A stretch of 42,030 bases of DNA from a virus. The stretch is from the IMG/VR virus record IMGVR_UViG_3300028556_000018, positions 1 to 42,030 of that record. The stretch is one strand, 5' to 3'. The position numbers and the translations under genes were made by a program. How positions within the stretch are numbered: the first letter of the stretch is position 1; every line of letters starts with the position of its first letter. The notes under the pieces are model-generated. The model searched no databases. It was not told the origin of the DNA and was given only the letters and a program-made list of their open reading frames with translations. Positions 1 to 41,751 of this stretch are shown here, piece by piece.

Positions 1-49
1 AGCCGAGGTTATCCTTCGTCCCCGGGTCGATCGCTAGTAGTCGAATCAT
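1..49 (-). CDS. RuvC-like Holliday junction resolvase, N-terminal fragment (runs off window)
   Basis: Only 16 codons are visible, beginning M-I-R-L-L-A-I-D-P-G-T-K. The IDPGT motif after a short hydrophobic strand is the first catalytic signature of RuvC-type resolvases; the Asp at residue 8 would bind metal. The ATG (49-47) overlaps the TGA stop of the upstream gene (48-46) as ATGA and has a good GGAGG site about 7 nt before it. It is the last visible gene of the minus-strand run that starts near 3653. In phages such enzymes resolve branched replication DNA before packaging. The fragment is short, so other RNase H-fold proteins remain possible. Confidence 0.6.
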   Translation of the reverse strand, partial: MIRLLAIDPGTKDNLG

Positions 50-282
50 TGCCAACCTCCCGCCTGCGCATCCCGCAAGCAAAAATCCGCGATCGACCCC
101 GGCCATCCGATCCATTCGCTATCGTATTGCTCAGGCGCGCCCGGTTGCCATAAACACTCACCTCTTTTGGACACAAGTACGATCGCGTCCCCTCGTCGAG
201 TCAAGTATGTCCCCTTCGGCCACCGGGGGAGCCACACCACGCCATCGAACTTGACCATTTTCATCGCTTCGGTAAAAGTCAT
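46..282 (-). CDS. Tad2/DUF2829-like small protein (possible anti-Thoeris)
   Basis: A 78-residue protein. The N-terminus (MTFTEAMKMVK, then PRWPKGTYL) and the later segment LWQPG...D...W resemble the DUF2829 family pattern (M-x-F-x-E-A-L..., G-W-x-G-K-G-M, W-x-P-S-x-x-D-x-x-x-x-D-W) in order and spacing. In DUF2829, phage Tad2 proteins bind the cyclic nucleotide made by the Thoeris defence system. Here the Trp-Asn of the central motif is replaced by R-W-P, so the match is not perfect. The ATG overlaps the stop of the terminase small-subunit candidate (ATGA). Family assignment is inferred from memory of the pattern; the anti-defence role is a hypothesis. Confidence 0.5.
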   Translation of the reverse strand: MTFTEAMKMVKFDGVVWLPRWPKGTYLTRRGDAIVLVSKRGECLWQPGAPEQYDSEWIGWPGSIADFCLRDAQAGGWQ

Positions 283-848
283 TTGTTTTTTGCCTCTATT
301 TCCATAATGATTTTCAGGTCTTCCGTCGACATCTTGCTGTAATCGACCGGGGTCTTTTCAACTCTCTCGGTCGGGAGCCCCGCGATCAGGTTGGTGAACT
401 TCATCAAGAGTTCCGCCAGCTTGATCACGTTCTTCTCCTGCATAATCGGCATTTTCTCCCATTGGGGATCGTTCGCCTTCTCGAGCATGAGCTGGATTTC
501 TCGCCGAACTACCTGAAAGCCCTCGTTTATCGTCGCGACAGAGTGCGCCGCCGACTCGCGCATGAGTTTTCCGACGGTCTCTTTCTTGATCTCGACGGCG
601 TGCTCTTCGAGCATGCGGTCGTAAGCCTCGCAGCGCTGGACCCACTTGTGCTCACTCGACCACTTCGCGATCTGGGCCGTGTCTTTGCCGTGTAGACGCT
701 GCAAGCGCCTCGGCCAGGAGAGCTCGCGGTACGCGCGGAAGAACCGAAAGGCTTCGTCCGGCTCGTTCAGTTGCTGGAGCCAAGGCTCGGGCGCCTTCGC
801 CAGGTCCTTCGGATCATAAACCGCGAGCTCGCGGTCGGTGCGGTTCAC
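279..848 (-). CDS. Terminase small subunit candidate
   Basis: A 189-residue protein if started at GTG 848, which overlaps the upstream stop as GTGA and has GGAAAGG 8 nt before it; an ATG at 911 is in frame but would overlap the cupin gene by 67 nt. The N-terminal third has the pattern P-x-E-A-F-x-x-F-x-x-Y-R-E-L, then I-x-K-W-S-x-x-x-x-W-x-x-R-x-x-A-Y-D, seen in phage small terminase-like proteins: a small helical DNA-binding module followed by a W-x-x-R-x-x-A-Y-D helix. The rest is helical and charged. It would recognise packaging DNA and feed it to the large subunit. The large subunit lies about 12 kb away on the other strand, so the pairing is inferred. Confidence 0.6.
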   Translation of the reverse strand: MNRTDRELAVYDPKDLAKAPEPWLQQLNEPDEAFRFFRAYRELSWPRRLQRLHGKDTAQIAKWSSEHKWVQRCEAYDRMLEEHAVEIKKETVGKLMRESAAHSVATINEGFQVVRREIQLMLEKANDPQWEKMPIMQEKNVIKLAELLMKFTNLIAGLPTERVEKTPVDYSKMSTEDLKIIMEIEAKNK

Positions 849-1339: not shown

Positions 1340-1367
1340 ATTATATAGCTCGGAAGTTTTCAGTCAA
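1340..1367 (-). promoter_or_regulatory. Sigma70-type promoter for a leaderless mRNA (cupin gene)
   Basis: On the minus strand, -35 TTGACT (1367-1362), 16-bp spacer, -10 TATAAT (1345-1340), then AGCCCC and ATG at 1333. The expected start of transcription falls on or next to the ATG and there is no Shine-Dalgarno site. The -10 box overlaps the stop codon of the helicase fragment upstream. Confidence 0.8.
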
Positions 1368-2303
1368 GGTATTGGACGAATACCAGCGGCCCGGCCAGGC
1401 TAGCCCGTAGTGCAAGTGCAGCGCGGGTTTCGTGCGTCGGCAATCGCGCGCGCGACCGTGAGCTTGTTCGAGCTCGCACGCGAGTTTCTGTCGCCCGAGC
1501 TCGTTCGCGTCGACCCCGAAGAACTCCGCTTCGATGTCGACGGATAGCAGGTTTTGATAGTGATCTCCTATGGTTGCAAAGACGTCGCACCCTTGCCAAG
1601 TGTCTAGCCCTTCGATCGCGCCGAAGTGACTGACTTCGAAGGTCTCGGCATATTCCTTGACCTTGTGCGTTAGCTTCTTCGGGCAGCACACGAACACGCG
1701 AGACCCCGGCCGACGCCGGTAGACGTCGTCACAAATCGCACGAAGGCGTTCCGGGTCTTGTGCAAGCGCGCTCGTCGATGCCTGCGACACCAGCACGCGC
1801 ACCCGCTCGATAGCCACGCCCGGCGAGTCTTCGACGTTGTGCTGCCGGTAGATCACATCCGGGCGCAAGGCCTGAAGGATCAACCGTGGGAGCCCCGCGG
1901 CGAGAATCGTGCCGCCTTGCGACTTCAGATGCGCGGCGGCGGTGCTCAGGCGCACGACGTCGACGCGCCCCTCAGAGAACGTGAGCTTGCTGCTTTCGTG
2001 GGCCGCCCGGCGCACGTCCCCCGCGACCTTCACCGGGGCAAAAGACAGGGCGATAAGCTTGGCGTTGAAACCCCCAGAGCTCTCGAACCCGGGGATTTTG
2101 AACGAGTCGGGGATTTCTGGCACTTCGCAAGCTCGGGCTCGGGCCGAGAGGTCATCCGTCCCCGCCATCAAAGCCTTGGCCCAGGGCTCGACCGCCTTGC
2201 GCCACGCCGCCCCCGTCGAGTCGAGAGCGGTCGGGATATCGGCCAAGGCTATGGAGAATTGATCCAGAACTTCGGGCCATTCGTCGATGATGATATTTTT
2301 CAT
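1341..2303 (-). CDS. Primase/helicase, C-terminal helicase part (split gene)
   Basis: A 320-residue protein that begins right at a DExx motif (M-K-N-I-I-I-D-E-W-P-E) and ends with helicase motif VI (Q-A-H-G-R-A-R-D, residues 280-287), preceded by a motif V-like W-Q-G-C-D segment. It has no Walker A motif. That motif is at the end of the upstream gene 2388-3653, in the same reading frame and 28 codons away. The two pieces together make one superfamily 2-like helicase. The separating stretch has stop codons TGA, TAG, TAG and a hairpin. No good ribosome binding site precedes ATG 2303. It may be made by reinitiation or another recoding event, or be a degraded half. Confidence 0.6.
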   Translation of the reverse strand: MKNIIIDEWPEVLDQFSIALADIPTALDSTGAAWRKAVEPWAKALMAGTDDLSARARACEVPEIPDSFKIPGFESSGGFNAKLIALSFAPVKVAGDVRRAAHESSKLTFSEGRVDVVRLSTAAAHLKSQGGTILAAGLPRLILQALRPDVIYRQHNVEDSPGVAIERVRVLVSQASTSALAQDPERLRAICDDVYRRRPGSRVFVCCPKKLTHKVKEYAETFEVSHFGAIEGLDTWQGCDVFATIGDHYQNLLSVDIEAEFFGVDANELGRQKLACELEQAHGRARDCRRTKPALHLHYGLAWPGRWYSSNTLTENFRAI

Positions 2304-2321
2304 GGGCTAGCTCTGCCGTTT

Positions 2322-2397
2322 CAAGTCAGTGTCCCTTATGATCTAAGATCTTCTTCTCTTGAAGGGGACACTGACTTGGGACACACCTCATCCGTAG
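2322..2397. repeat. Palindromic element, copy A, inside the split primase/helicase gene
   Basis: Arms CAAGTCAGTGTCCCTT (2322-2337) and its near-complement (2362-2378, one extra G) form a 16-bp stem around a 24-nt loop that itself contains GATCTAAGATC. The homology to copy B near 38.75 kb runs outward to about 2397, into the last codons of the primase gene, so the TGA stop of that gene (2390-2388) belongs to the repeated block. Reading on the minus strand, this 33-nt block matches 38749-38781 at 32 positions. The loop, however, has the same orientation on the plus strand in both copies, so loop and arm are flipped relative to each other. Confidence 0.85.
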
Positions 2398-3653
2398 CGA
2401 TGTAGCATAGCATGAGAGCTTACCTCACCTTTCAACTTGTCGCCGACGCCCTCGGCCACCGTGCAGCCCTCTCTGGTAGGGCAGTTCATGCAGGCATATT
2501 TGCTCGAAACTCCCGCATCCCTCAAAGCTTTTACGGTTTTTGGTTGAACGCATCCCCCCCGCTCGGGTAGGGGGACGTCGACCCCGGCCGCCTGGTGCGC
2601 GCCGCAGGCGAGGCGGTGCTGGGTCGCTAGGTCATTGGTCTTACTCAAGAGCACGTTCTTGATGCCTTCGTGAATCGCGCCGGGGGGTAGGTGTCGGCGG
2701 GTTTCGTGGCTCTTGCCCGCGCCCGTCGTCAGGTCGACGGCGCTAAGCTGTCCCCGGATCCCCCCGGCCTTGAGGGTCTCGAGCAGGGCCCGAGGCGTCG
2801 CGGTGACGGGCTGGGCCGGGGGGATAATCGTCGCGGCCCAATCGGAATATGTTACGTGGCCGCAAGAGGCCTTCATGCACTTGAACCGGCCATCGGGCAG
2901 GATCGCCGTGGTCGACGTGAGGGCGCCCCCGTTGTGCCTTTCGGTCGGGCAATAGACGGCATAGACCCCCCGGCCTACGTGACACGCCTTGCCTTCCGAG
3001 ATAGCTATGGCCAGTACCGGGTCGTCCGGGCCCCAAGACGCGCTCACGCTTTTCGTAGCGCGAGGGCGGGCCTTTCTAGGAGCCCTAGGGGTGAACGGTC
3101 CGGGGTCGAAGTCGAGGGGGGCAAGGGCGCCTTCGAGTACAGGGGTCTCGTCTTTGCCGTCACGCTTCACGAACGGAAGGCGCATGTGCCGACCAAAGGA
3201 CCCCGCGGTGTGATCGACCCCGAGAAACCCCCGGCGCTCGAGTTCGAGGTACCAAGCCTTGGCGGTGAACTCATAAAATGCGCTGCCTAATATTTCGACC
3301 TGCCAGACTAACCTAACCCCCGAGCGTGTCTTGTAAATCAAGCATCCCCCCATGACCCGAGCGCGAGCCGCTTCGGTCTCCTTCCAGGCGTCGAGCGCGT
3401 CGCCCGTGAGCTTGTGCGCGTCGAGGTCTGCGAAGAGTAGAACGTACGTTAGTTCACCGGGGTAGTCCTTCGTGAGCCGGTAGGCCGGCAAGCCCTCGGG
3501 GATGGCGTGCGCGAGAGCGAACGCATCGTAGTCGTAACGGCGCGTGAAGACATCGGAAATAGACACACATTCCCCGGGCCTAGCGAGGGGCCATTTGGGG
3601 TAACCGAGCTGCTTCGTCCCGTTCATCACGGCGACGTGGACAATAGCCGGCAA
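2388..3653 (-). CDS. AEP-type primase/helicase, N-terminal part (split gene)
   Basis: About 421 residues from TTG 3653 (423 from GTG 3659). Numbered from 3659: F-A-D-L-D at 77-80 looks like the primase catalytic Asp pair, K-T-R-S-G at 110-114 and R-H-M-R-L-P-F at 157-163 fit archaeo-eukaryotic primase folds, a Cys/His zinc-type segment spans 237-268, and T-T-G-A-G-K-S at 311-317 is a Walker A motif. A second Cys cluster (C390, C393, C399) follows. Translation ends S-H-A-M-L-H-R-Y-G, just where helicases continue to the DExx strand, which instead opens the next gene. TTG 3653 sits 7 nt after a TAAGGT box with TTGCGC at -35, favouring a leaderless start there. Confidence 0.75.
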   Translation of the reverse strand: MPAIVHVAVMNGTKQLGYPKWPLARPGECVSISDVFTRRYDYDAFALAHAIPEGLPAYRLTKDYPGELTYVLLFADLDAHKLTGDALDAWKETEAARARVMGGCLIYKTRSGVRLVWQVEILGSAFYEFTAKAWYLELERRGFLGVDHTAGSFGRHMRLPFVKRDGKDETPVLEGALAPLDFDPGPFTPRAPRKARPRATKSVSASWGPDDPVLAIAISEGKACHVGRGVYAVYCPTERHNGGALTSTTAILPDGRFKCMKASCGHVTYSDWAATIIPPAQPVTATPRALLETLKAGGIRGQLSAVDLTTGAGKSHETRRHLPPGAIHEGIKNVLLSKTNDLATQHRLACGAHQAAGVDVPLPERGGCVQPKTVKALRDAGVSSKYACMNCPTREGCTVAEGVGDKLKGEVSSHAMLHRYG

Positions 3654-3689
3654 TAGCACTACCTTACTGAGCTATGCAGTTTCGCGCAA
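3637..3689. promoter_or_regulatory. Divergent overlapping promoters between primase and Cas4-like nuclease
   Basis: Plus strand: TGGACA (3637-3642), 17 bp, TACCTT (3660-3665), 8 nt, ATG 3674. Minus strand: TTGCGC (3689-3684), 17 bp, TAAGGT (3666-3661), 7 nt, TTG 3653. The -10 boxes lie on top of each other, so only one polymerase could bind at a time. Neither start has a correctly spaced Shine-Dalgarno site. The plus-strand -10 is weak, so this pair is less certain than the one at 21.1 kb. Confidence 0.5.
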
Positions 3690-4354
3690 CCATGCTCACG
3701 ACAGGGCTCCAATGCAAACGCGCCTGGTCATTCCGTTATTTGGCCGGAATGGAGGCCCCGGACACGGCGGCGTTCCAGGACGGTAGGGCGGGACACAAGT
3801 ACATGGAAGACCTCGTCTCTCACGGCACGTTGCCGGACACGTCTACGAAGATGGGGCGCGTCGCAGCGGTGCTAGAACCTTACGTTCGCCCCTGGGTAAA
3901 AAACAAGCTGGCGCAGGTCGAGGTCGAGTTCGACTTTCGGGGCGCGAAGCATTCTTGGGGTGGGCGAAAGGACCTTGAAGTTCCCGGAATGCTGATTGAT
4001 TACAAGTTCATAGCTGACCTCAAGTACGCAATGACCCCGAGTCAGCTACTGACCAACCCGCAGGCATTACTTTACGGGCACGAGATTTTGCAGCGGACGG
4101 AGGTAGAGACGATCACGCTCCAGTGGCTCTACGCGGAAAAGAAGAAGCCTCACCGGCACCTTCCGGTCGTGACTGAGATGTCGCGGACGCACGCGGCACT
4201 CGGATTTCAGGTGCTAGAAAACGTCGCTGAAGAGCTCGCGGCATTGACAGAAACAACGGTCGACGCTATTGTTGCAAACGTACCTGGGAATTACTCCCAC
4301 TGCGGCGCCTACGGCGGTTGTCCCTACCGAGCGCAATGCAAGCGCTATTTCTAA
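3674..4354 (+). CDS. Cas4/RecB-like PD-(D/E)XK nuclease with Fe-S cysteines
   Basis: A 226-residue protein with an N-terminal Cys (L-Q-C-K-R-A-W), a nuclease core (V-E-V-E-F-D-F..., M-L-I-D-Y-K-F, then Q-L-L-T-N-P-Q-A-L-L-Y) and a C-terminal C-G-A-Y-G-G-C-P-Y-R-A-Q-C cluster. One early and three late cysteines around an I-D-Y-K motif is the Cas4/AddB arrangement, in which a 4Fe-4S cluster staples the nuclease. It would trim or resect DNA ends in replication or recombination. It is divergent from the primase gene and leads the plus-strand run; the next gene starts 11 nt after its stop behind AAGGAG. Confidence 0.75.
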   Translation: MQFRATMLTTGLQCKRAWSFRYLAGMEAPDTAAFQDGRAGHKYMEDLVSHGTLPDTSTKMGRVAAVLEPYVRPWVKNKLAQVEVEFDFRGAKHSWGGRKDLEVPGMLIDYKFIADLKYAMTPSQLLTNPQALLYGHEILQRTEVETITLQWLYAEKKKPHRHLPVVTEMSRTHAALGFQVLENVAEELAALTETTVDAIVANVPGNYSHCGAYGGCPYRAQCKRYF

Positions 4355-4364
4355 GGAGCTAAAA

Positions 4365-5030
4365 ATGACTGACGTGTCCGATGACATTTTCGCACGTATG
4401 AAACAGCTCGCGTCTTCGGGGGGTGCGACCGTCGCGCCGCCGGCACCGGAGACCTTGGCTCCACCGGAGAATCCGACGCCCGGGGGCAACCCGCACCCCG
4501 CGGCCAGCTTGCCTATCGAGCCCACCGAGGCGACCCCTACTGTCAACCGCAAGCCAGGACGGCCGCCGGGGGCGAAGAACAAGCCTAAGGCGCCGAAGGT
4601 AGAAGATGCCAACGGCACGTTCACCGTCAACCCCGAGACGGCCACTAGCACGTTCACCGTCAACCCCGAGCCGTGGTCGCTTGACGCCACGGTGGGCGAA
4701 GCCGGCGCGCCCGCCGACGCCGTAGAGGTCGACCCCAAGGTCCCCGCCATTCGCACGCTTTACGTCAACTGCATCCCAATCGGCCGCGATCCTGCCGCAC
4801 TTTTCTCTGACATTTTGGCGGCGGCCAAGAAGACACTCCCTTGCGACTACCGACTCGGCGAGGATCACTCTTTCGGGATGGGGCCGGCTAAGTTGCTTGA
4901 GGCGGTAGGCCGCGAGATCGAAAAAAGGCCCGGGGTGAGCATCATCATCGATACGTGTAGCCCCGAGGCCTATATCTGCATCGAAATGCTAAGGAGCCTA
5001 GCTCACGAAGTTATCATCGGTACGCGCTAA
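4365..5030 (+). CDS. Hypothetical protein with AT-hook-like linker
   Basis: A 221-residue protein, start set by AAGGAG 7 nt before ATG 4365. Residues 1-100 are low complexity, rich in Pro, Ala and Thr, with an AT-hook-like R-K-P-G-R-P-P-G at 62-69 followed by Lys-rich residues, and a duplicated T-F-T-V-N-P-E segment. The last 90 residues look like a folded alpha/beta domain. The layout, a disordered DNA-touching arm plus a small domain between a nuclease and a helicase, suggests a replication or recombination helper, but the family is not recognised. The TAA stop overlaps the next ATG (TAATG). Confidence 0.65.
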   Translation: MTDVSDDIFARMKQLASSGGATVAPPAPETLAPPENPTPGGNPHPAASLPIEPTEATPTVNRKPGRPPGAKNKPKAPKVEDANGTFTVNPETATSTFTVNPEPWSLDATVGEAGAPADAVEVDPKVPAIRTLYVNCIPIGRDPAALFSDILAAAKKTLPCDYRLGEDHSFGMGPAKLLEAVGREIEKRPGVSIIIDTCSPEAYICIEMLRSLAHEVIIGTR

Positions 5031-6697
5031 TGGCATTCGGCGGGAGCCACAACCCGATCAAGACCTCGGAGGATCTTCGGCGAGTGCTGGACCTTCCCGG
5101 GCGCGGGCCACTGCCGCCGTTGCCAGCCGTAGCCGACAACCCCCTTTGCAAGCTGAAGCCCGTTCAGGAGCAAGCGCTTCGCGAGTTCATAGCTTGCAAA
5201 GGGGGCGCGGGGCCGATCGCGGTCGGGGGCGGGAAGACGCTCATCTCCTTGCTTTTACCCCCACTGCTCGGTAACCCGAGGTCCGTGCTTCTGCTGCCTG
5301 GAGGTCTCATCGAAAAGACCGAGGTCGAGCGCATCAGGTACCGCCGGCAGGGGTGGAACGTGTCGATGTCGATGCGCATGATCGGGTACGAAGCCCTCGG
5401 CCGCAAGGCCATGCACGGCGAGCTCGAGTTCATTGGGCCGGAGTTGATCATCGGCGACGAAATACACAAGTTGAAACACCGCAAATCCGCGGTCACCCGA
5501 CGTGTCGACCGCTACATGGACGCGCACCCTGAGACGATCTTCGTTGGGCTGGGCGGAACCTTCATCGAAAAAGAGTTGGAGCTCTTCGCGCACATCCTGA
5601 TCTGGGCGCTGAAAGAGCGAGCCCCGGTGCCATTCGCGCGCGACATCCTGCGCGAATGGGGAGAAGCTTTGAACCCCAACGTGGACGACTTCAAGCGCCG
5701 TGCGCCAGGGGCGCTTCTGGAGCTATCCCCGGGGGCGGAAGATGGCCCGACGGCGTTCCGAGACAAGCTCCGGGATACCCCCGGGATCGTGTTCAGCACC
5801 AACGATCAGGATTGCAAGAGTTCCATCATCCTGCGCCGGATTACCTACGAACACGCGAAGGTCACGGACGACAACTTCAAGACCTTGCGCATGTTGAACG
5901 AAACCCCTGACGGGTGGGCTTTGACCGAGGCCATGGAGGTCTCGGCCTGCGCGCGCCAACTAGCTCTCGGGCTGCACTATATTTGGGCCCCTCGCCCGCC
6001 GGATCCTTGGTACGCGGCCCGCAAGGCTTGGGGGAAGTTCGTGCGCGATGTGCTGTCCCGCTCGAGTACGGTCGACTCGGAATCGCAAGTTGTGAGCGCC
6101 GTGGACGCGGGGGAGATCGATGATCTAGGGCTCTTGGCCGCGTGGAGGAAAGAGGCTCCGACGTTCGAGATCAACGTGCAGGCCGTCTGGCATGACGATG
6201 CCGCGCTGAAGGTCGCAGAGGCTTGGATTCATAAGGAGGACGAGCCGGGCATCGTCTGGACGCAGCATTCGTTTTTCGGTCGCGAGCTCGCGCGACGTAC
6301 AGGTCTTGATTACTTCGGGGCCGGCGGAATGAACTCGCGCAAGGAGCGCATCGACGACGAATCGCGGGCGGGTTACGGGAAACCCTGCATCGCATCGGTG
6401 AAGGCGAACGCGACGGGGCGCAACCTCCAACCCTGGTCGAGGGGGCTCATCACGTGCCCGCTCCCCGATGCCGGGCTCTGGGAGCAACTAATCGGCCGTC
6501 ACCACCGCACGGGGCAACAGGCCGACACTATCCAGATAGACGTCTTTTATACCTGCAAAGAACACATGGACGCCTTCGATCGGGCCCTCGACGTCGCCGC
6601 GTCGAACTTCGCGCTGAACGGGCAGACGAGCAAGCTCCTCATCGCGGACATACTGCCGCCCCCGAAAAAACACCGCGGTAACGCCTGGTCTGCTTGA
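5030..6697 (+). CDS. SNF2-like DEAD/H-box helicase
   Basis: A 555-residue protein with superfamily 2 motifs in order: Q-x-x-A-L near 47-50, Walker A A-V-G-G-G-K-T (64-70), DExH as G-D-E-I-H (142-146), G-L-G-G-T-F as motif III, and Q-L-I-G-R-H-H-R-T-G-Q near 485, the SNF2 form of motif VI. It likely uses ATP to move along or remodel DNA during replication or recombination. ATG 5030 overlaps the previous stop, so it is translationally coupled to the AT-hook protein. The middle (about 200-340) has no motifs I can name. Confidence 0.8.
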   Translation: MAFGGSHNPIKTSEDLRRVLDLPGRGPLPPLPAVADNPLCKLKPVQEQALREFIACKGGAGPIAVGGGKTLISLLLPPLLGNPRSVLLLPGGLIEKTEVERIRYRRQGWNVSMSMRMIGYEALGRKAMHGELEFIGPELIIGDEIHKLKHRKSAVTRRVDRYMDAHPETIFVGLGGTFIEKELELFAHILIWALKERAPVPFARDILREWGEALNPNVDDFKRRAPGALLELSPGAEDGPTAFRDKLRDTPGIVFSTNDQDCKSSIILRRITYEHAKVTDDNFKTLRMLNETPDGWALTEAMEVSACARQLALGLHYIWAPRPPDPWYAARKAWGKFVRDVLSRSSTVDSESQVVSAVDAGEIDDLGLLAAWRKEAPTFEINVQAVWHDDAALKVAEAWIHKEDEPGIVWTQHSFFGRELARRTGLDYFGAGGMNSRKERIDDESRAGYGKPCIASVKANATGRNLQPWSRGLITCPLPDAGLWEQLIGRHHRTGQQADTIQIDVFYTCKEHMDAFDRALDVAASNFALNGQTSKLLIADILPPPKKHRGNAWSA

Positions 6698-6722
6698 CCT
6701 TATCCGATTCGCTTCGTATAGT
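6694..6722 (+). promoter_or_regulatory. Sigma70-type promoter with leader (6744 operon)
   Basis: TTGACC (6694-6699), 17-bp spacer, TATAGT (6717-6722). The -35 box overlaps the end of the helicase gene. The start of transcription would be near 6729, leaving a short leader that contains AAGGAG before ATG 6744. Unlike many promoters here it drives a message with a normal ribosome binding site. Confidence 0.8.
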
Positions 6723-6743
6723 GACAATCCAAGGAGATAGGAC

Positions 6744-6917
6744 ATGACCTTCAACTCTTTCATGGCAGAATACAAGGGGCAGTCCCCGGAAATCCTCTCG
6801 GTCCAGAACGCTTTTCAACCGCGCAAGGGCCGAGTCACGGAAAACAGCCTGGTCAAAGACTACGGCCCCGAGGCGCATTTCGCTTGGGCGGCCTTCGTCA
6901 AGGCCGGCGGACACTAA
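6744..6917 (+). CDS. Small hypothetical protein (57 aa)
   Basis: A 57-residue protein starting at ATG 6744 with AAGGAG 7 nt upstream, so the reading frame is well supported despite its size. It begins MTFNSFMAEYKG and ends in a Phe/Trp-containing helix and A-G-G-H. No family recognised. It is the first gene after a strong promoter and is followed 30 nt later by a gene with its own ribosome binding site, so it probably belongs to the replication operon. Confidence 0.65.
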   Translation: MTFNSFMAEYKGQSPEILSVQNAFQPRKGRVTENSLVKDYGPEAHFAWAAFVKAGGH

Positions 6918-6947
6918 CCTAACAACGAACGCACGAAGAGGTAGAAC

Positions 6948-7379
6948 ATGATTCCCGATATCGGCAACGCAAAAGACCTTTCATTCAAGACACCTTACTT
7001 CCCGGACGGGTTCCAAGGTCGATGTGTCATCGACGAGATGCGAGAGCTCAGTGGCTTTGCCGGCCACGCTCTTGTAATCACCTTGACACCAGAAACTAGC
7101 AATCTGCCCGATGTAGCCGTCGGCGCTCAACACTCGTGGTATGTGTCCTTCGCTACGCCGAAGCAGATCGAATGGAACGCCCCCGTCGTGAAGCAATTCA
7201 TGATGGCCGCCGTTGGGGCAAAGACGGAGGAGGCTCGGAATAAGGTAGCCCCGAGCATTACCGCCCTGACCAACGCCGCCGTCCAGCCCAACCAGCCGAT
7301 GAAAGGCACGAAGATCAACCTTCGGACTCAGAAGAACCAGAGCGGTTCGTTCACGAAGCACTTTTTTTCTCCGGTCTGA
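6948..7379 (+). CDS. Putative ssDNA-binding/DUF669-like protein
   Basis: A 143-residue protein with a single beta-rich domain: G-R-C-V-I-D-E-M-R-E-L, then H-A-L-V-I-T-L-T-P-E, W-Y-V-S-F and V-V-K-Q-F-M-M-A-A-V-G. The tail (about 105-143) is rich in Gln, Asn and Lys and ends in aromatic residues. The order of strands, the short helix K-x-F-x-x-A-x-x-G and the position just before DNA polymerase resemble phage DUF669-type proteins thought to bind single-stranded DNA. The similarity is weak. Start at ATG 6948 behind AGAGG. Confidence 0.45.
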   Translation: MIPDIGNAKDLSFKTPYFPDGFQGRCVIDEMRELSGFAGHALVITLTPETSNLPDVAVGAQHSWYVSFATPKQIEWNAPVVKQFMMAAVGAKTEEARNKVAPSITALTNAAVQPNQPMKGTKINLRTQKNQSGSFTKHFFSPV

Positions 7380-7389
7380 GCTTAGCTTT

Positions 7390-7409
7390 ACCCCGCTTGG
7401 TAGCGGGGT
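7390..7409 (+). terminator. GC-rich hairpin after the 6948 gene
   Basis: ACCCCGCT (7390-7397) pairs with AGCGGGGT (7402-7409) around a TGGT loop, starting 10 nt after the stop codon at 7379. Only two Ts follow before C and G, so it is a weak terminator at best. It could equally be a processing or stabilising hairpin in front of the tRNA-like element. Confidence 0.45.
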
Positions 7410-7411
7410 TT

Positions 7412-7483
7412 CGGGTGGCTAAGGCTAAGTCTGGCGGCGACCACGTTGCCGTTGGAGAGTAGGTTCGATTCCTACCCACCCAC
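7412..7483 (+). tRNA. tRNA-like element, atypical or degenerate
   Basis: The 3' half is a clean T arm: GTAGG (7459-7463), loop TTCGATT, CCTAC (7471-7475). It joins directly to CCACCC (7476-7481), which pairs with GGGTGG (7413-7418) as an acceptor stem; the outermost pair would be a C-A mismatch. An anticodon-like arm CGGCG/TGCCG (7435-7451) has the loop ACCACGT, giving CAC with C instead of U at position 33. The D region is only 13 nt, lacks the GG of a D loop, and no CCA is encoded. It ends 10 nt before the polymerase start. It may be a decayed tRNA or a tRNA mimic in the leader. Confidence 0.4.
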
Positions 7484-7493
7484 TGAGGTTTCC

Positions 7494-9368
7494 ATGCCGA
7501 TTGCATTCGACTTTGAAACCTTCTTGTTCGGTCCAGGCAACATGGCCCCCAAGGCCGTGTGCTTGTCGATCTACCCGAACCGGGAGTTGCATCACGCCAA
7601 AGGGGCCGAGCCTCGCATTGTAGAACTCTTTGGGGGTAATGACCTTCTGGTCGGGCAGAACGTGGCCTACGATTGTCAGGTGATCTGCGCCAACTGGCCC
7701 CATCTGATCCCGACGGTGTTTGCCAAGTACGATCGCAACCAGATCACCTGCACGAAAATTAGAGAACAACTCATAGACACGGCGCTCGGCAGGTTCCGCG
7801 GGGCGCGCGGCCTGGATGGCGAGTGGGTACAGCGCGGTTACTCACTGGACGACATGGCGTCTCGGTACCTGAAGCGCCGGCTAGACAAGGACACCTGGCG
7901 CCTGAAGTACGGCGAGCTTTACGACGTGCCACTAGACCAATGGCCCGAAGGCGCGCGGCTCTACCCCCTAGAAGATGCCGTGGCGACGTACGAGGTTTTT
8001 CAGTGCCAAGAGCAGGCCGGCGTCGCGCTACTGGTGGATCAGTTCAACCAGACCCGGTACCAGTTCGCCCTTGCGCTCACGTCCTGCTACGGCCTGCGCA
8101 CGGACCCGTCGCGGGTGGAGGAGTTCGCGCGGCTCGCGGAAGAGGATTACACCGACTTGAAGAAGACGCTCGTCGCGGCGGGTCTGGTTCGCCCCGATGT
8201 GGTGAATCGCAAAGGCGTCGTCGTCCCCGGTGCGGCCGACACGAAGGCGGCGCAAGCCGCGATGGCTCGCGCGTGCGAGGCGGAAGGCATCCAGCCCGTA
8301 CTTACCAAAGGCGGCCAAATCTCGCTCGGGGCCGACGCTTGCGACCGAGTAGACGACCCGATCATTCAGGACTACAGCGAATTTCAGACCGCGCGCAAGG
8401 TGCTATCGAATGACGTGGAGATGCTCAAGGGCGCGCTCCAGATTTGCCACCCGAGATACGACCTGACGAAGACGGGGCGAACTACGTGCGCGGGGCCGAA
8501 CATTCAGGCGCTTCGCAAGAAGGCGGGCATCCGGGATTGCTTCATGCCCGAAGAGGGTAACGTCTATATCCAGTGCGACTACCCTTCGCTGGAGCTTTAC
8601 ACCCGAGCCGAGTGGTGCATCCGTGTCTTGGGCTCCTCGTCGCTCGCGGCGACGCTCAATGCCGGGATGGACGCGCACCTTAGCGTCGCGGCGGTCATGC
8701 TGGGGATAACGTACGAAGAGGCCTTGCGGCGTAAAAAAGACAAGGACGTCAAGGAAGCGCGCCAGGCCGCAAAGCCTATAAACTTTGGCGTGCCGGGGGG
8801 TCTCGGCATCGCGCGCACGTGCGACTACTCGAAGAAACAATACGGCGTCGACATGACGCCCGAGCAAGCCAAGACCTGGATCCGCGATTGGAAGCGAGCG
8901 CAGCCCGAGGTAGAGCCCTTCTTTCGACTTGCAGCGGAGCTCACCGCCGAGACGGGGACCGGGGGCGAGATCAGCCCTTTCACCGGACAGATTACGAGCG
9001 GGAAGAAATACAGCGAGCTCTGCAACGAGCGCTTTCAGCGCTTGGGGGCGGACATCGCCAAGATGGCCATGTGGTACGTGGCTCGCGAGTGCTTCACGGG
9101 TTCGATGATAGGTTGGCACCCGGTCGCGTTCATTCACGACGAGATTATCTGCGAGGGCCCTGCCGAGGACGCGGCCCGCGCGGCGGGGCTTCTGGCCAAG
9201 CTCATGAAGGACGCGGCGAACGTCTACCTGCAAAACGTGCCGATGCACGACGAAAAAGACTGGCCGCTAAAGCTTGAACCCCTTATTATGACTTGCTGGG
9301 CGAAAGAGGCCGAGCCTACCTACAACGAGCAAGGAGTTCTGATTCCATGGGAACCTACGATCAAGTGA
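7494..9368 (+). CDS. Family A DNA polymerase with 3'-5' exonuclease
   Basis: A 624-residue protein from ATG 7494, behind GAGG. Exonuclease motifs: D-F-E-T (6-9), N-V-A-Y-D (56-60) and Y-P-L-E-D (157-161). Polymerase motifs: A as Q-C-D-Y-P-S-L-E-L (D362), B as R-Q-A-A-K-P-I-N-F-G (R423, K427, F431) and C as H-D-E (548-550). All metal ligands and the motif B Phe are present, so the enzyme should be active in both synthesis and proofreading. There is no 5' nuclease domain, as usual for phage PolA-type replicases. The next gene begins 22 nt before its stop. Confidence 0.95.
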   Translation: MPIAFDFETFLFGPGNMAPKAVCLSIYPNRELHHAKGAEPRIVELFGGNDLLVGQNVAYDCQVICANWPHLIPTVFAKYDRNQITCTKIREQLIDTALGRFRGARGLDGEWVQRGYSLDDMASRYLKRRLDKDTWRLKYGELYDVPLDQWPEGARLYPLEDAVATYEVFQCQEQAGVALLVDQFNQTRYQFALALTSCYGLRTDPSRVEEFARLAEEDYTDLKKTLVAAGLVRPDVVNRKGVVVPGAADTKAAQAAMARACEAEGIQPVLTKGGQISLGADACDRVDDPIIQDYSEFQTARKVLSNDVEMLKGALQICHPRYDLTKTGRTTCAGPNIQALRKKAGIRDCFMPEEGNVYIQCDYPSLELYTRAEWCIRVLGSSSLAATLNAGMDAHLSVAAVMLGITYEEALRRKKDKDVKEARQAAKPINFGVPGGLGIARTCDYSKKQYGVDMTPEQAKTWIRDWKRAQPEVEPFFRLAAELTAETGTGGEISPFTGQITSGKKYSELCNERFQRLGADIAKMAMWYVARECFTGSMIGWHPVAFIHDEIICEGPAEDAARAAGLLAKLMKDAANVYLQNVPMHDEKDWPLKLEPLIMTCWAKEAEPTYNEQGVLIPWEPTIK

Positions 9369-23277: not shown

Positions 23278-24671
23278 AAAAGCGAATACCTTTTTTCTTG
23301 CTGCTGTTTTTGGCGATCATGATGATCGCGGCCATCCCGGCTCGCAAGCCTCGGGTCGAATACTGGTGGGGTCAAGCCAACTGGTACGTCGATCCGGCCA
23401 ACGTTACGGGGTTGGCAAACGACGCGAACACGGGGGCCGACGCAACCCACCCGCTGCGCCATTTCGACGAGATTCACCAGCGTTGGGGTACGTGGCAACC
23501 GCTTCTGACCTGCCCCAACGGCGCGACCACGATTTGGGTAATGTCGGGTCAAGCTCCCGAAGTGGATCAGGTCTACATCGAGCCGCGCGTCGAAAACGGG
23601 TGTCAATTCGCGGTGCGCGGGCTCCTCAATGCGTCTAACACGATTCAAACCGGCACTCTCAGCGGCGTTACGCAGATCTCTAAATCCGGTGGCGGGACGT
23701 TAGCTCAGGCTACGTTCGGCGTGGGGCTCACCGTGGGCCCGGAGATCGTCTACAACAATACTCGGGCAACGACCGCATGGCTAAACACGTTGTCAAGCGG
23801 AACAACGTTCAACGTTTCAAATCCCGTACCCACTGCGCAAGTCCCGTATGTGCCTGGTCTAACGGGTAACGCCTGGGCTAACGGTGATTCGTACACAGTT
23901 TATCAGGTGCCTTGCATCAACCTGAAAACGTGGCATCCGGTATGGGGCGATCTGAGAGACACTCCTGATACGCGCGCTACCCTTGTGGATGTTTGCATTG
24001 ACCAGGGAATAGACGGAGCCTTTGGCAATGGCGACCAGGGTGAGGCGCAAGTTACTCTGGACGGTTCGGCCATCCAAGAGGTTTACGTTCTCGGTTCCGG
24101 TTCGTTCGTGCAGGTGGTTGGGACGCATGGATCCAGGGCGGGCGGGATCGTAAGCAACGTCTCGACGTTCCCCTTTGCGGCGCGGTTCAACATCAACGGA
24201 TTAGAATCATTACCGGCCAAAGAAATAGTCGTAGTAGCGGGCCAGTTCATTCAACCCAGTATGACGAACGTGTTTTTGCAGGGGGACACCATCGTAACTA
24301 ACGCCCAGTTCAGCGGACTTGTGCAGTTCACTTCGGTGTACTGGGGCGGTGCGTTGGACAAGATAATAAACGGATCGGTTTTTGCCAATTCGGCCGCATC
24401 CACAATATGGGGACCGGGAGCGCTCGCAGCCGGCGCGAACGGAACGATCATCTACCCATCGGGCGCCGGCCAGGCAGCGATCACATTTCCCGGGGGCTGG
24501 ACATACCTGACGGCCGTGCAATTCAATCACGGATGTCTGGAGACCGCGACTGGGGGCGCCGTATCCTGCAACGTGTCGACTCAGGCGAGCAATCTTGACA
24601 CGGTGCTTGGCGCAACGATCGGATGCGTTAGGCTTGGTACTTCGGCCGTGTGCAACACCAACGCCCCCTAA
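23274..24671 (+). CDS. Exported or membrane-anchored beta-rich protein (465 aa)
   Basis: A 465-residue protein with a classic signal sequence (M-K-K-R, then about 18 hydrophobic residues, A-I-P-A-R). The body starts W-Y-V-D-P...D-A-N-T-G-x-D-A-T-H-P-L-R, a pattern common at the start of right-handed beta-helix proteins, and continues with many short Gly/Asn/Thr strands. Such proteins are often tailspikes or polysaccharide-acting surface proteins, but phage spikes rarely carry a signal peptide. The ATG overlaps the previous stop (ATGA). It ends 4 nt inside the convergent fibre gene. Confidence 0.55.
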   Translation: MKKRIPFFLLLFLAIMMIAAIPARKPRVEYWWGQANWYVDPANVTGLANDANTGADATHPLRHFDEIHQRWGTWQPLLTCPNGATTIWVMSGQAPEVDQVYIEPRVENGCQFAVRGLLNASNTIQTGTLSGVTQISKSGGGTLAQATFGVGLTVGPEIVYNNTRATTAWLNTLSSGTTFNVSNPVPTAQVPYVPGLTGNAWANGDSYTVYQVPCINLKTWHPVWGDLRDTPDTRATLVDVCIDQGIDGAFGNGDQGEAQVTLDGSAIQEVYVLGSGSFVQVVGTHGSRAGGIVSNVSTFPFAARFNINGLESLPAKEIVVVAGQFIQPSMTNVFLQGDTIVTNAQFSGLVQFTSVYWGGALDKIINGSVFANSAASTIWGPGALAAGANGTIIYPSGAGQAAITFPGGWTYLTAVQFNHGCLETATGGAVSCNVSTQASNLDTVLGATIGCVRLGTSAVCNTNAP

Positions 24672-25921
24672 TCTCTATGATCGTCTACGAATATGACGAC
24701 CCGGAAAGGTTCTACGCGGGCGAACTTGCCGGCCCCTAAGGCCTCGGTAGACTCGACCCCGAACGGGAAGATGCCTGCCATCCCCGCGACGGCGACTCCG
24801 GCCCCGAAAGTCTCGGTCGATGGGATGCCGGTGACGGCGATCTTCCACACGGCGGCCCCCGCGCCTGACCCCTCGCTCGAAGGGATGCCGGAAAGCGCGC
24901 CCTGAGCTAGCATCGTCCCCGCGCCTACGGCCTCGGTCGAAGGTATACCAGACGGCGAGATGGTGCTAATCGCGAGCGCGGACCCCGCGCCGAAAGCCTC
25001 GGTCGAAGGGATACCCGTGACCTTGAACTGCCAGACCGTCGCGGGGGCTCCAAGTGCTTCGCTCGAAGGGATGCCCGCGAGCGTACCCAGGGCTAGCGTC
25101 GTCCCTGAGCCGAAGGCCTCGGTCGAAGGGATGCCCGCAGGAGAGATAGAGCTAATAGCGAGCGAGACCCCCGCGCCGAAGGCTTCGGTCGAAGGCACGC
25201 CAGCGGGCTTTACCTGCCACACGGTGGCCGAGGCGCCGAAGACCTCGTTGGTATATATACCTGACGGGGCGAGCACGCCAGACGGCGCCCCCGCGCCGAA
25301 GACCTCGTTGGTATATATACCTGCCGGGGCGAGCACGCCAGACGGCGCCCCCGCGCCGAAGGCCTCGGTCGAAGGTGCCCCCGAAGGCGCGAGCACGCCA
25401 GAGGGCGCCCCTGCGCCGAAGGCCTCGGTAGAGGTAAGACCGAAGGGGGCTACGTTCTGCACGGCCTTGGTGCGGGTGCCTAGTTGGTCCTCGGCGAAAG
25501 GGATTCCCGTGAGCGTGCCGGCGGGCAGTGTCGACCCGGCCCCGAAGGCCTCGGTCGAGGGGATGCCGGAGGGGGCGACGACGAGGATCGGCAGCGCCGC
25601 GCCCGCACCGAAGGCCTCGGTCGATGGAACGCTCGTGAGGGTGCCGGAGGGCAACGTCGCCCCGGCCCCGAGGGCTTCGGCTGAGGGGATTCCCGTGAGG
25701 GTGCCGGAGGGCAGTGCGGTGGGGGCCGTCCCGTAGGGTGTGACTTCTACCCCCGAAGGAATGAGCACGCCCAGCAGCAGCACCGCGCCGAAGACCTCGG
25801 TCGTGTCGATCCCCGTGCCTAGAATGACGGGAACGACCGGGGCCGCGTCCGGCGTGAGTACCCCGGTGCCGAGTAAAACCGGGATCGGTTTCCCCGGAGC
25901 GACCGGCCCGATACGGGGCAT
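24668..25921 (-). CDS. Repeat fibre protein (G-I-P-S-T-E-A-F-G-A-G repeats)
   Basis: A 417-residue protein made of about 18 copies of a roughly 20-residue unit whose core is G-I-P-S-T-E-A-F-G-A-G, with variants such as G-I-Y-T-N-E-V-F-G-A. Between cores lie short Leu/Pro/Val strands. Such repeats are found in phage and bacterial surface proteins and probably form a long beta-structured rod. The N- and C-terminal ends are unique, likely the virion attachment point and tip. It starts on the previous stop (TAAATG) and ends in a 4-nt overlap with a convergent gene. Confidence 0.7.
   Translation of the reverse strand: MPRIGPVAPGKPIPVLLGTGVLTPDAAPVVPVILGTGIDTTEVFGAVLLLGVLIPSGVEVTPYGTAPTALPSGTLTGIPSAEALGAGATLPSGTLTSVPSTEAFGAGAALPILVVAPSGIPSTEAFGAGSTLPAGTLTGIPFAEDQLGTRTKAVQNVAPFGLTSTEAFGAGAPSGVLAPSGAPSTEAFGAGAPSGVLAPAGIYTNEVFGAGAPSGVLAPSGIYTNEVFGASATVWQVKPAGVPSTEAFGAGVSLAISSISPAGIPSTEAFGSGTTLALGTLAGIPSSEALGAPATVWQFKVTGIPSTEAFGAGSALAISTISPSGIPSTEAVGAGTMLAQGALSGIPSSEGSGAGAAVWKIAVTGIPSTETFGAGVAVAGMAGIFPFGVESTEALGAGKFARVEPFRVVIFVDDHRD
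25233..25352. repeat. 60-bp tandem repeat within the fibre gene
   Basis: Two nearly identical 60-bp units (25233-25292 and 25293-25352) encode the two G-I-Y-T-N-E-V-F-G-A units. They differ by a single base in the part compared (GACGG versus GCCGG). The surrounding units have the same 20-codon length family but are more diverged. Confidence 0.85.
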
Positions 25922-38657: not shown

Positions 38658-38792
38658 ATGTGCCCCTGCCAGACGCGTGGCGACTACTTGCAACGCAAGG
38701 AATCGATATCCCTGCCTGGTAGCACCGCCCCTCTCAGAGGAGACGGTACTACGGTTGAGGTGTGTCCCAAGTCAGTGTCCCTTGTGATCTAA
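38658..38792 (+). CDS. Possible small Cys-containing peptide (44 aa)
   Basis: A 44-codon frame from ATG 38658, beginning M-C-P-C-Q-T-R-G-D-Y-L and running into palindromic element copy B, which supplies its last 14 codons. AGG strings lie 5-10 nt upstream but spacing is loose. No family. It may be chance. Confidence 0.25.
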   Translation: MCPCQTRGDYLQRKESISLPGSTAPLRGDGTTVEVCPKSVSLVI

Positions 38793-38828
38793 GATCTTCT
38801 TCTCTTGACTAGGACACTGACTTGGGAC
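38749..38828. repeat. Palindromic element, copy B
   Basis: Perfect 17-bp arms GTCCCAAGTCAGTGTCC (38764-38780) and its complement (38812-38828) around a 31-nt loop. The left flank back to 38749 and left arm match copy A's minus strand (2397-2365) at 32 of 33 positions. The loop, in contrast, matches copy A's loop on the plus strand. It lies between gene ends, not inside a large gene. Confidence 0.9.
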
Positions 38829-39563: not shown

Positions 39564-39633
39564 GCTAGGCGCTGGGCGCGGGGTTATTAGGTAGGCACGT
39601 GGCGTGCAATAGCCCCTAGACGGAGGTTAGACC

Positions 39634-39900
39634 ATGAGCCAACACTACCTATACGAAAGCGACGAAGACTCTCCTACGCGACTGCCATCACTCGAGGTAT
39701 TTTGGATGAGCGCCGAAGAGATAGCCGGATTTGATTGGATAGATGGCGACGGCGAACTTATGGGGCCGGGATGGTATTGGTGGACGTGCTTGCCCGGTTG
39801 CCTACCTGATAGCGACCCATTCGGGCCCTACGATAGCGAAGATGCCGCCCTACTCGACGCGCGCGAAGGCCTCGAAGACCTAGAAGACGATGGCACATAA
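39634..39900 (+). CDS. Highly acidic small protein (88 aa)
   Basis: An 88-residue protein with about 23 Asp/Glu and only two Arg and no Lys, so its net charge is near -20. W-Y-W-W-T-C-L-P-G-C-L-P-D-S-D-P-F-G-P-Y-D is a motif shared by small early phage proteins as I recall them. Strong acidity may mean DNA mimicry, as in anti-restriction proteins, but the fold is unknown. GGAGG lies 7-9 nt before ATG. First gene of the early-type plus-strand run. Confidence 0.65.
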   Translation: MSQHYLYESDEDSPTRLPSLEVFWMSAEEIAGFDWIDGDGELMGPGWYWWTCLPGCLPDSDPFGPYDSEDAALLDAREGLEDLEDDGT

Positions 39901-39924
39901 CCTGCATTATCCTAAAACATCAAC

Positions 39925-40116
39925 ATGACGCAAAACGAGCAAACGGCCGTGACGATTCACCCGGTGATTTCGACCGACCTTCTGGACAAGATGATCGTCG
40001 GCATGAGCCTTGCAAATGTGCTGGCTTACGTGGTCGCCTTGCACGACAACGCCGCGTGCGTGGACGTCACGGCTCGATCGTTAGAAGCATGGGACACGGT
40101 AATTCCAGGTAAATAA
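39925..40116 (+). CDS. Small hypothetical protein (63 aa)
   Basis: A 63-residue protein with a hydrophobic centre (M-S-L-A-N-V-L-A-Y-V-V-A-L) that could be a helix in a small fold or a weak membrane segment. ATG 39925 lies 6 nt after TAAAAC (39913-39918), so a leaderless start is possible; no ribosome binding site is seen. No family recognised. Confidence 0.5.
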   Translation: MTQNEQTAVTIHPVISTDLLDKMIVGMSLANVLAYVVALHDNAACVDVTARSLEAWDTVIPGK

Positions 40117-40147
40117 CCCTCGAACAACGCGAAAGAAGGATAAAAAC

Positions 40148-40957
40148 ATGTACGATTTCACCCCGGTGACACAAGCGACCTACTGGCTAAACGTTACCCC
40201 ACGAGATTTCGTCCCGACTGAGAATCGAGCCGAATGGCTCTCAGAATATGGCGTGCCCCCGGAAAAGGCCACGGTCGAAATCACGGCGTCCCTAGACGTA
40301 TGGGCAAGCGTGGACGCAACGATCAATTCGGATGGCACTGTCGTACCGAGCTACCTATTGCGCGAAGCGATTACCGAGATCGTGTGTGCCGAGGTGCAAA
40401 AGTGGGGCACGCTGCCTGAACGCCTTACGGACTATGCAGTTTGGAACGCGGATCTCAAGGTCAAAGAGGACGAAGCGAAGCGCGAGGCGACGCGCTTGGA
40501 GGCCATCGCGCGAAACGCCAAGGATGAAGCGTTTCGTCAAGAGCTTGACAGGCAGGAACGTCAACGCCGTGACGAGAAGGAGGCGAGAGATCGCGCCGAA
40601 GAGATGGCGATTTGCGCCTACGTGCGAGCGAATTGCCCTGACCTCGTGCCAGCGCTAGACGCGGGTTATGGGGTCATTCAAGAGGCCTTGAATACCATGG
40701 CGGCATTCGCGCTCGCGCAAATCATCGAAGCTACTGGCCTTTTCGCGGAAGAGCTGAAGGCCAAGCCCTACGCAAAGACCGAGTGCTCTGCGCCTTGCCC
40801 GAAATTGATCCATGCGAATGACAAGATCGGCGACCTGGCTATCGACCTATCCAAAACGTTCGGCCTAGGGGTCCACGTCTCGCGTATCTACGGAGACGGG
40901 TATTTTCTTGTGACGATCAATTCTGCCTTCGGGAATCGATACCTCGAGGTCGGCTAG
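40148..40957 (+). CDS. Coiled-coil hypothetical protein (269 aa)
   Basis: A 269-residue protein behind AAGGA. Residues 1-90 are beta-rich (Y-D-F-T-P-V-T-Q..., V-E-I-T-A-S-L-D-V-W), residues 100-155 are a highly charged coiled coil (D-E-A-K-R-E-A-T-R-L-E...R-Q-E-R-Q-R-R-D-E-K-E), and a C-terminal domain has several Cys and ends with strands. It fits an early phage protein that dimerises through the coil. No family recognised. Confidence 0.65.
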   Translation: MYDFTPVTQATYWLNVTPRDFVPTENRAEWLSEYGVPPEKATVEITASLDVWASVDATINSDGTVVPSYLLREAITEIVCAEVQKWGTLPERLTDYAVWNADLKVKEDEAKREATRLEAIARNAKDEAFRQELDRQERQRRDEKEARDRAEEMAICAYVRANCPDLVPALDAGYGVIQEALNTMAAFALAQIIEATGLFAEELKAKPYAKTECSAPCPKLIHANDKIGDLAIDLSKTFGLGVHVSRIYGDGYFLVTINSAFGNRYLEVG

Positions 40958-41035
40958 GCACCCTTGGCACGGCAACTGCAATACTCATAAACGTAACGCG
41001 CAAACGAAACAACGAAAAGAAAGACGGATAGCAAA

Positions 41036-41281
41036 ATGACCAAAATGATGATCGCCCTCCTCGCCGCCGCAAACCTCCTCGTGCTCGCAGGTATCGCTCG
41101 CGCCGATGACACTGAGGTCACGACGTTCACCCCCGCAGTCGTGCGTCACGCTGCGCCGCTGGCCCACGTCTCGTTTGACATGGTACAAGTGTGCGACGCT
41201 TCCTTGACCCATTGCACGGTGCGCACGTTGGGCGCGACGGCCGACCGTTCGCCGAAGGCTTCGCTCAAGGGGACACCGTGA
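41036..41281 (+). CDS. Small secreted protein (81 aa)
   Basis: An 81-residue protein with a signal peptide: M-T-K-M-M-I-A-L-L-A-A-A-N-L-L-V-L-A-G-I-A-R-A then D-D, with cleavage likely after A-R-A. The mature part has two Cys (V-C-D-A-S-L-T-H-C) that may pair outside the membrane. Export of a small early phage protein suggests action at the host envelope, such as superinfection control. Its stop overlaps the next GTG (GTGA). Confidence 0.6.
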   Translation: MTKMMIALLAAANLLVLAGIARADDTEVTTFTPAVVRHAAPLAHVSFDMVQVCDASLTHCTVRTLGATADRSPKASLKGTP

Positions 41282-41466
41282 AAGCGTTTCCGCGCGGCGC
41301 GCGTGTCTACGTCGACGGCAAGGATCCCGCCTACGTTTGGGAAGCCTTCCCCAAAGGAAGCACGTCATACGCCTTCCCCCACTACATCCTAGTGCATGAC
41401 ATGGGTAGGGCCCGATGCGCACGTTTCGCAGTCGCGTGGGCGCGCGTGGGCGTTTGGCTCGGATGA
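41278..41466 (+). CDS. Small hypothetical protein (62 aa), tail possibly altered
   Basis: A 62-residue protein from GTG 41278, with AAGGGG 6 nt upstream and overlap with the previous stop. A-R-V-Y-V-D-G-K-D-P-A-Y-V-W-E-A-F-P-K-G-S-T-S-Y-A-F-P-H-Y looks like an SH3-like small beta-barrel. The last 22 residues (after H-D-M-G) are basic and low in structure and lie over a repeat found again at 41776, so recombination may have replaced the original end. Confidence 0.55.
   Translation: MKAFPRGARVYVDGKDPAYVWEAFPKGSTSYAFPHYILVHDMGRARCARFAVAWARVGVWLG
41403..41420 (+). repeat. 18-bp direct repeat, copy 1 (also at 41776-41793)
   Basis: GGGTAGGGCCCGATGCGC occurs here inside a gene and again at 41776-41793 just before the last gene. 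Each copy is followed, after different distances, by a CGGGAGG...ACGAAAATG leader, which suggests past recombination between small-gene cassettes. Confidence 0.8.
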
Positions 41467-41487
41467 GGCTGCACACTTCGCTAGTTC

Positions 41488-41513
41488 CCGTGTGCGCGCT
41501 TGCGCGCACGGGA
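41488..41513 (+). promoter_or_regulatory. Hairpin that may cover a ribosome binding site
   Basis: GTGCGCGC (41493-41500 after a CCCGT lead) pairs with GCGCGCAC (41502-41509), and the arm can extend so that CCCG pairs with CGGG of the CGGGAGG site before ATG 41524. The structure is very stable and could lower translation of that gene unless opened by a passing ribosome or factor. Confidence 0.45.
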
Positions 41514-41523
41514 GGTAACGAAA

Positions 41524-41751
41524 ATGTCGAAATTGGAAGATTACACGGTTGTGGGGTGCATTTACTTCGATCCCGAGAGCTATAAAGCTCACGTCTTGAC
41601 GATAGCTGTAAGTCAAAGTGGCCAGGAACATCATGTGTTAGACTCGAGGCTTATGCATTTTGAGCCTACCTCCGCAGAAGCCTTGAAAATCCTGTCAGAA
41701 AGAATTTTCGGCGAAGGGAACGTTTCCGTTTTTACTGTCACTCGACTCTGA
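41524..41751 (+). CDS. Small hypothetical protein (75 aa)
   Basis: A 75-residue protein from ATG 41524, behind GGGAGG with 8-nt spacing. It begins M-S-K-L-E-D-Y-T-V-V-G-C-I-Y-F-D-P-E and has alternating strands and one helix (S-A-E-A-L-K-I-L-S-E-R-I-F-G). Compact alpha/beta fold likely. No family recognised. Same leader type as the next gene. Confidence 0.6.
   Translation: MSKLEDYTVVGCIYFDPESYKAHVLTIAVSQSGQEHHVLDSRLMHFEPTSAEALKILSERIFGEGNVSVFTVTRL

Follow-up and report, generated by a model that had tools for sequence, protein, structure and literature searches.

The question raised by this locus is whether a primase-helicase gene that is interrupted by a palindromic spacer still yields a working enzyme as two subunits, is rejoined by recoding or splicing, or is simply broken. 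The DNA analysed (hereafter the window, 42,030 nucleotides of IMG/VR record IMGVR_UViG_3300028556_000018) comes from an uncultured environmental phage, and all parts of the locus lie on its minus strand: an upstream ORF (N, 2388-3659, 423 aa), which ends in SSHAMLHRYG at the TGA 2390-2388, a spacer (2304-2390, 87 nt counting that TGA) and a downstream ORF (C, 1341-2303, 320 aa), which begins with MKNIIIDEWP. As the original prediction had stated, N and C share one reading frame, and three in-frame stops could be located between them, namely the TGA at the end of N, a TAG at 2345-2343 and a second TAG at 2309-2307. Judged by codon statistics, the true frame is preferred in N as well as in C, and none of the six frames of the spacer is coding.

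The motifs of the two halves hold up against shuffled proteins. In N, an AEP-type primase domain occupies about residues 10-169, as judged by a pairwise match (E 6e-5) to the AEP primase region of the protein that another phage (L051) encodes in the same genomic slot, and is accompanied by a zinc-like CxxxxCGH motif, a Walker A motif (GAGKS, residue 313) and, from residue 370, a cysteine cluster of the form C-x19-C-x2-C-P-x4-C. C corresponds to the RecA2 half of an SF2 helicase and carries, in this order, a DExx motif (IIIDEWP), a SAT-like motif (ILAAGLP), a motif IV/V region and motif VI (EQAHGRAR). The chance frequencies are 2.5% for G.GK[ST] and 0.6% for a loose four-cysteine pattern in N, and 0.09% for hhhDE within the first 20 residues and 0.3% for QxxGRxR in C. 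Searches of Pfam, PHROGs, NCBIfam and PDB returned nothing usable for either ORF, and AlphaFold2 models computed without an alignment were of low confidence (mean pLDDT 34 and 39). A near-perfect sigma-70 promoter (TTGACT-16-TATAAT, 1340-1367, minus strand) has its -35 box within the end of C; since 6 nt separate the end of this promoter from the start codon (ATG) of the following gene (1333-845), that gene may be transcribed leaderless.

Homologues were reached via weak tblastn matches of C to plasmids (E about 1-10), which prove nothing alone; the homology is supported by the profile score obtained afterwards and by the motifs in common. They form one family, primase-linked SF2 helicases encoded on plasmids (mostly alphaproteobacterial), with members in Bradyrhizobium (WP_283043598, whose gene adjoins a Toprim gene), Roseomonas (WP_207420042), Rhodovastum (WP_150041075), Tolypothrix (WP_045875042, with PriCT-2), Bosea, Acetobacter and others, and several of them are either joined in one ORF with a primase or encoded beside one (AEP, Prim-Pol or Toprim). 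The plasmid loci on which this four-cysteine helicase family was seen, often joined to such primases (L118:1519-3975, L119-L134), form an observation in their own right, as the members scanned have no Pfam model of their own and give weak DEAD and DEAD_2 matches only. A family HMM built from eleven homologues scored C best of 366 sequences (E 5.4e-7; next ORF of the window, 0.35), so that by profile similarity of its RecA2 half C belongs to the plasmid helicase family (around P0005). A profile of the Walker A/cysteine region alone did not score N, and the helicase half of N is assigned to the family by motifs only. Its cysteine layout differs from that of the family (C-x20-C-x2..13-C-P-x4-C) in having x19 for x20 and is closest to that of a Roseivivax protein (C-x20-C-x2-C-P-x4-C), and across N and C together the family order of Walker A, cysteine cluster, xHxxL and DExx is preserved. 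The plasmid proteins resemble the phage halves in the order of Walker A, four-cysteine cluster, xHxxL, DExx and motif VI, whereas they differ from them in being single ORFs, and identity to the phage halves is about 23-32% over short stretches only. Closer homologues of N, of C or of the joined protein, for which phages and plasmids were searched with tblastn and viral contigs with peptide patterns, came solely from a near-identical strain; one further candidate (L006) proved to be a spurious match, and a motif VI DNA pattern brought up no relatives among the viral contig loci scored.

The single-ORF homologues allow the junction to be measured. From the histidine of xHxxL to the DE of DExx they have 18-20 residues (23 in one case) in all 14 homologues compared, a few of these distances being counted by eye from the sequences, and the stretch is uninterrupted in each of them. 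In the phage the same interval comprises 42 codons with three stops, and the family's one continuous ORF is therefore absent. The excess of 57-72 nt compares with a block of 76 nt that recurs elsewhere in the phage genome, and removal of 75 nt would leave 17 codons. This agreement between the excess and the length of the repeat suggests that the linker was of ordinary length when the repeat inserted into it. Had the homologues normally been two genes with the same gap, the prediction of one ancestral gene, into which a palindromic insert has brought a break and a stop codon immediately ahead of the DExx motif, would have lost its ground; those found are single ORFs, and the insert turned out to be a repeat. 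As far as sequence comparison can tell, the intact homologue that a once continuous gene implies is thus present.

Newly recognised here, and missed in the first reading of the sequence, is that the core of the spacer belongs to a dispersed repeat, whose second copy lies at 38749-38828. Copy A (2322-2397, minus strand, 76 bp; CTACGGATGAGGTGTGTCCC) consists of two 14-bp arms (2322-2335 and 2365-2378) and a 20-nt side tail that extends to 2397, and it contains two of the three stops, namely the TGA at which N terminates and the first TAG, with the TAG 2309-2307 lying outside. Copy B (listed on the plus strand) has 17-bp arms (38764-38780 and 38812-38828). The 61-bp core at 2322-2382 recurs at 38768-38828 with 93% identity as a direct repeat, and the 20-nt tail recurs at 38749-38768, but on the opposite side of the core. 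The DNA that flanks the two copies is unrelated, and the inner stem pairs of the hairpin are not conserved in copy B. As a candidate target duplication, copy A has only a 4-nt ACGG at its flanks, which does not keep the phase of the reading frame, and the left tail is common to both copies. The exact-arm palindrome pattern occurred in none of 84,980 species genomes and, among viral contigs, in this phage only; copy A had no real match among named phages or plasmids, and the relatives read yielded no second case. Judging from these collections, the repeat is phage-specific and dispersed.

The hairpin of the predicted insert is real, its perfect stem being 14 bp rather than the 16 bp first given (2322-2335 / 2365-2378, with a 29-nt loop). 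Folded as RNA, the region reaches -41.7 kcal/mol compared to -25.6 kcal/mol for shuffles (z -4.65). Between the repeat and the start of C remain 18 nt (2304-2321) in which the TAG 2309-2307 stands directly before CCC ATG, and this stretch is best read, from its position and length, as what may be left of the old linker. It holds an in-frame stop, and about 743 codons of the flanking ORFs hold none. If there were no selection at all, a single nonsense change would land in those six codons in less than 1% of cases, an argument that weakens if the inserted piece reached further to the right; the right border of the insert is uncertain by a few nucleotides, and the TAG at 2309 might have arrived with it.

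A sequencing error at the junction, named beforehand as a finding that would overturn the prediction, can be excluded by a second strain. Two IMG/VR contigs of this strain (33,318 and 18,869 bases, 3300028558) share nearly all overlapping sequence with the window, the differences being a 228-bp block, an indel of 3 nt and substitutions at scattered positions. The junction and both repeat copies are unchanged in this independently assembled genome, and N and C are open in both strains, with no difference in N and three in C (two synonymous and V194I). Since the two contigs overlap at their ends (120 bases, 99%), the phage genome may be circular or circularly permuted, with a size of about 52 kb. 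The 228-bp block (window 46-283), which the second strain lacks (L013, near 8353), contains a small minus-strand ORF, adjoins the terminase small subunit gene and has a 5-nt sequence repeated at both of its edges. Towards the right end of the window, most substitutions between the strains fall into a variable region at 39630-41730. Elsewhere, at 24668-25921, the window encodes a protein of 417 aa that is composed of repeats of about 20 residues (GIPSTEAFGAG...), with a 60-nt periodicity in the DNA.

The surroundings of the locus speak to the need for its function. A PD-(D/E)XK nuclease gene (3674-4354, plus strand) lies next to the primase-helicase slot and is part of a conserved replication module (window 3674-9368; L035-L071) together with an SNF2-like helicase and a DNA polymerase A. 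Relatives found via the DNA polymerase share the order of slot, PD-(D/E)XK nuclease, SNF2-like helicase and polymerase A, and every relative with a readable slot has a primase-helicase there, mostly as one ORF of 716-882 aa and sometimes as two genes. As a primase-helicase occupies the slot throughout, its function seems to be needed, and a working split is accordingly more likely than a dead gene. The helicases in the slot of the relatives are of SF3/VapE or DnaB type and thus of quite different families, so that the junction cannot be aligned with them.

Taken together, we consider it very probable, on comparative sequence grounds, that a phage-specific palindromic repeat inserted into a once continuous primase-helicase gene. 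The ancestor would have been one gene that encoded a primase and an SF2 helicase with a cysteine-cluster insert (Fe-S- or zinc-like), and a repeat copy of about 75 nt would have entered the linker of 18-20 residues between the conserved xHxxL and the DExx strand. Whether function survived this event is a separate matter, and here we lean, with a good deal less assurance, towards retention as two chains. N and C would then be translated separately from one transcript, translation of C would restart at the ATG at 2303 just past the hairpin, and the two chains would assemble into one primase-helicase. Assembly is proposed on the grounds that the break spares the motifs, lying in a linker between them. 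The start of C has a weak Shine-Dalgarno match (-2.8 kcal/mol), and several other genes of the phage score no better. The reading as a whole, a gene in pieces with two polypeptides that form one helicase, is the best explanation in our opinion, held on balance and no more firmly than the retention of function that it includes.

The main rival is that the gene is broken, i.e., that the repeat inserted recently and killed the helicase, with N perhaps still serving as a primase, C being a relic and the phage either borrowing a host helicase or declining. A recent insertion into a dying gene would give a similar picture, as the insert brings stops and a strong hairpin 10 nt past the end of N, C lacks a good ribosome-binding site and only two very similar strains are known. 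We nevertheless favour two subunits over a dead gene and regard the latter as rather unlikely, since N and C are preserved intact in two strains and look like coding sequence, relatives with a readable slot all keep a primase-helicase or a primase plus a helicase, and the sole nonsense codon outside the repeat sits in the six codons of the former linker. One could also imagine that N and C have existed as separate, ordinary genes for a long time and that the palindrome is a regulatory hairpin between cistrons or in a 3'-UTR, used twice for RNA stability, attenuation or protein binding. Both copies indeed lie in the same sense past the stop of a minus-strand gene, 10 nt after N and about 32 nt after an HTH gene that ends at 38860, a TAG directly precedes the start of C, and C shares the CTAR (CTAA/CTAG) that is enriched in the 18 nt before starts of this phage (14/48 versus 13/413 for internal codons), an enrichment that arises partly because stop triplets are allowed before starts. 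This explanation appears improbable to us, however, given that the homologues are single ORFs whose linker length equals that of the phage once the repeat is subtracted, that the stop of N is located inside the tail of the repeat and that the inner stem pairs are lost in copy B.

Least compatible with the sequence are explanations in which the halves are joined again, whether by bypassing, stop readthrough or RNA-level excision with the palindrome as a signal. The agreement of the two frames and the resemblance of GGA-TGA followed by a strong hairpin to T4 gene 60 speak for such joining, but the hint at bypassing or splicing in the original prediction found no support. There is no in-frame GGN codon from the last stop to codon 31 of C, three in-frame stops would have to be passed, and excision of the repeat alone would leave the TAG 2309-2307, which is outside the repeat, in frame. 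With regard to splicing, neither an Rfam intron nor any other RNA family was detected in the window at the gathering threshold, and the spacer of only 87 nt contains no intein or homing endonuclease gene. We hence judge such joining to be highly improbable. Still less credence is given to the idea that the palindrome might be a new kind of mobile element, devoid of genes and confined to this phage, that spreads by copying within the genome and that coding genes tolerate via a skipping at the level of the RNA or the ribosome unlike known introns or bypassing of the T4 type.

The closest precedents for the gene in pieces that we prefer come from other phages. In Aeromonas phages 44RR and 25, the DNA polymerase gene 43 is split into 43A and 43B, in 44RR by an intercistronic untranslated sequence (IC-UTS); for phage 25, co-purification of the two parts and polymerase activity are documented (PMC2988022). 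As in the present case, a phage replication gene is divided into two ORFs by a short non-coding sequence; 43A/43B, however, encode a B-type polymerase of unrelated phages, whereas the spacer of our phage is a repeat that occurs a second time in the genome, and the chains are proposed to assemble. In Aeh1, an insertion splits the catalytic gene of ribonucleotide reductase (nrdA), and the two chains still work (PMC2988022). This again parallels our locus in that an insertion splits a catalytic gene, but the insert in nrdA is a homing endonuclease gene (mobE) and that of the present phage about 75 nt without a gene. In T4 gene 60, bypassing uses a matched GGA as landing codon (PMC5009743). The present junction shares with it a GGA and a stop, followed by a hairpin, inside a phage replication gene, and differs in having no matched landing codon into the downstream frame, more in-frame stops and a downstream half with its own ATG, so that programmed bypassing of this type is unlikely. 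Likewise, REP/RAYT elements and MITEs are short dispersed palindromes without a gene, but they would imply many copies in host or related genomes and a transposase acting in trans. The present repeat has two copies only, with none outside the phage in the collections searched, and no transposase was recognised in the window, which speaks against either class; nor is a clear target duplication seen.

Overall, the locus indicates that a phage-specific palindromic repeat can insert into a gene that looks essential. Should both chains be produced and assemble, they would represent an SF2 helicase that is split inside RecA1, between Walker A and Walker B, and it would be a tiny repeat without a gene, and not a homing endonuclease, that created a gene in pieces. 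As such, it would provide a testable route by which multi-subunit replication proteins may arise.
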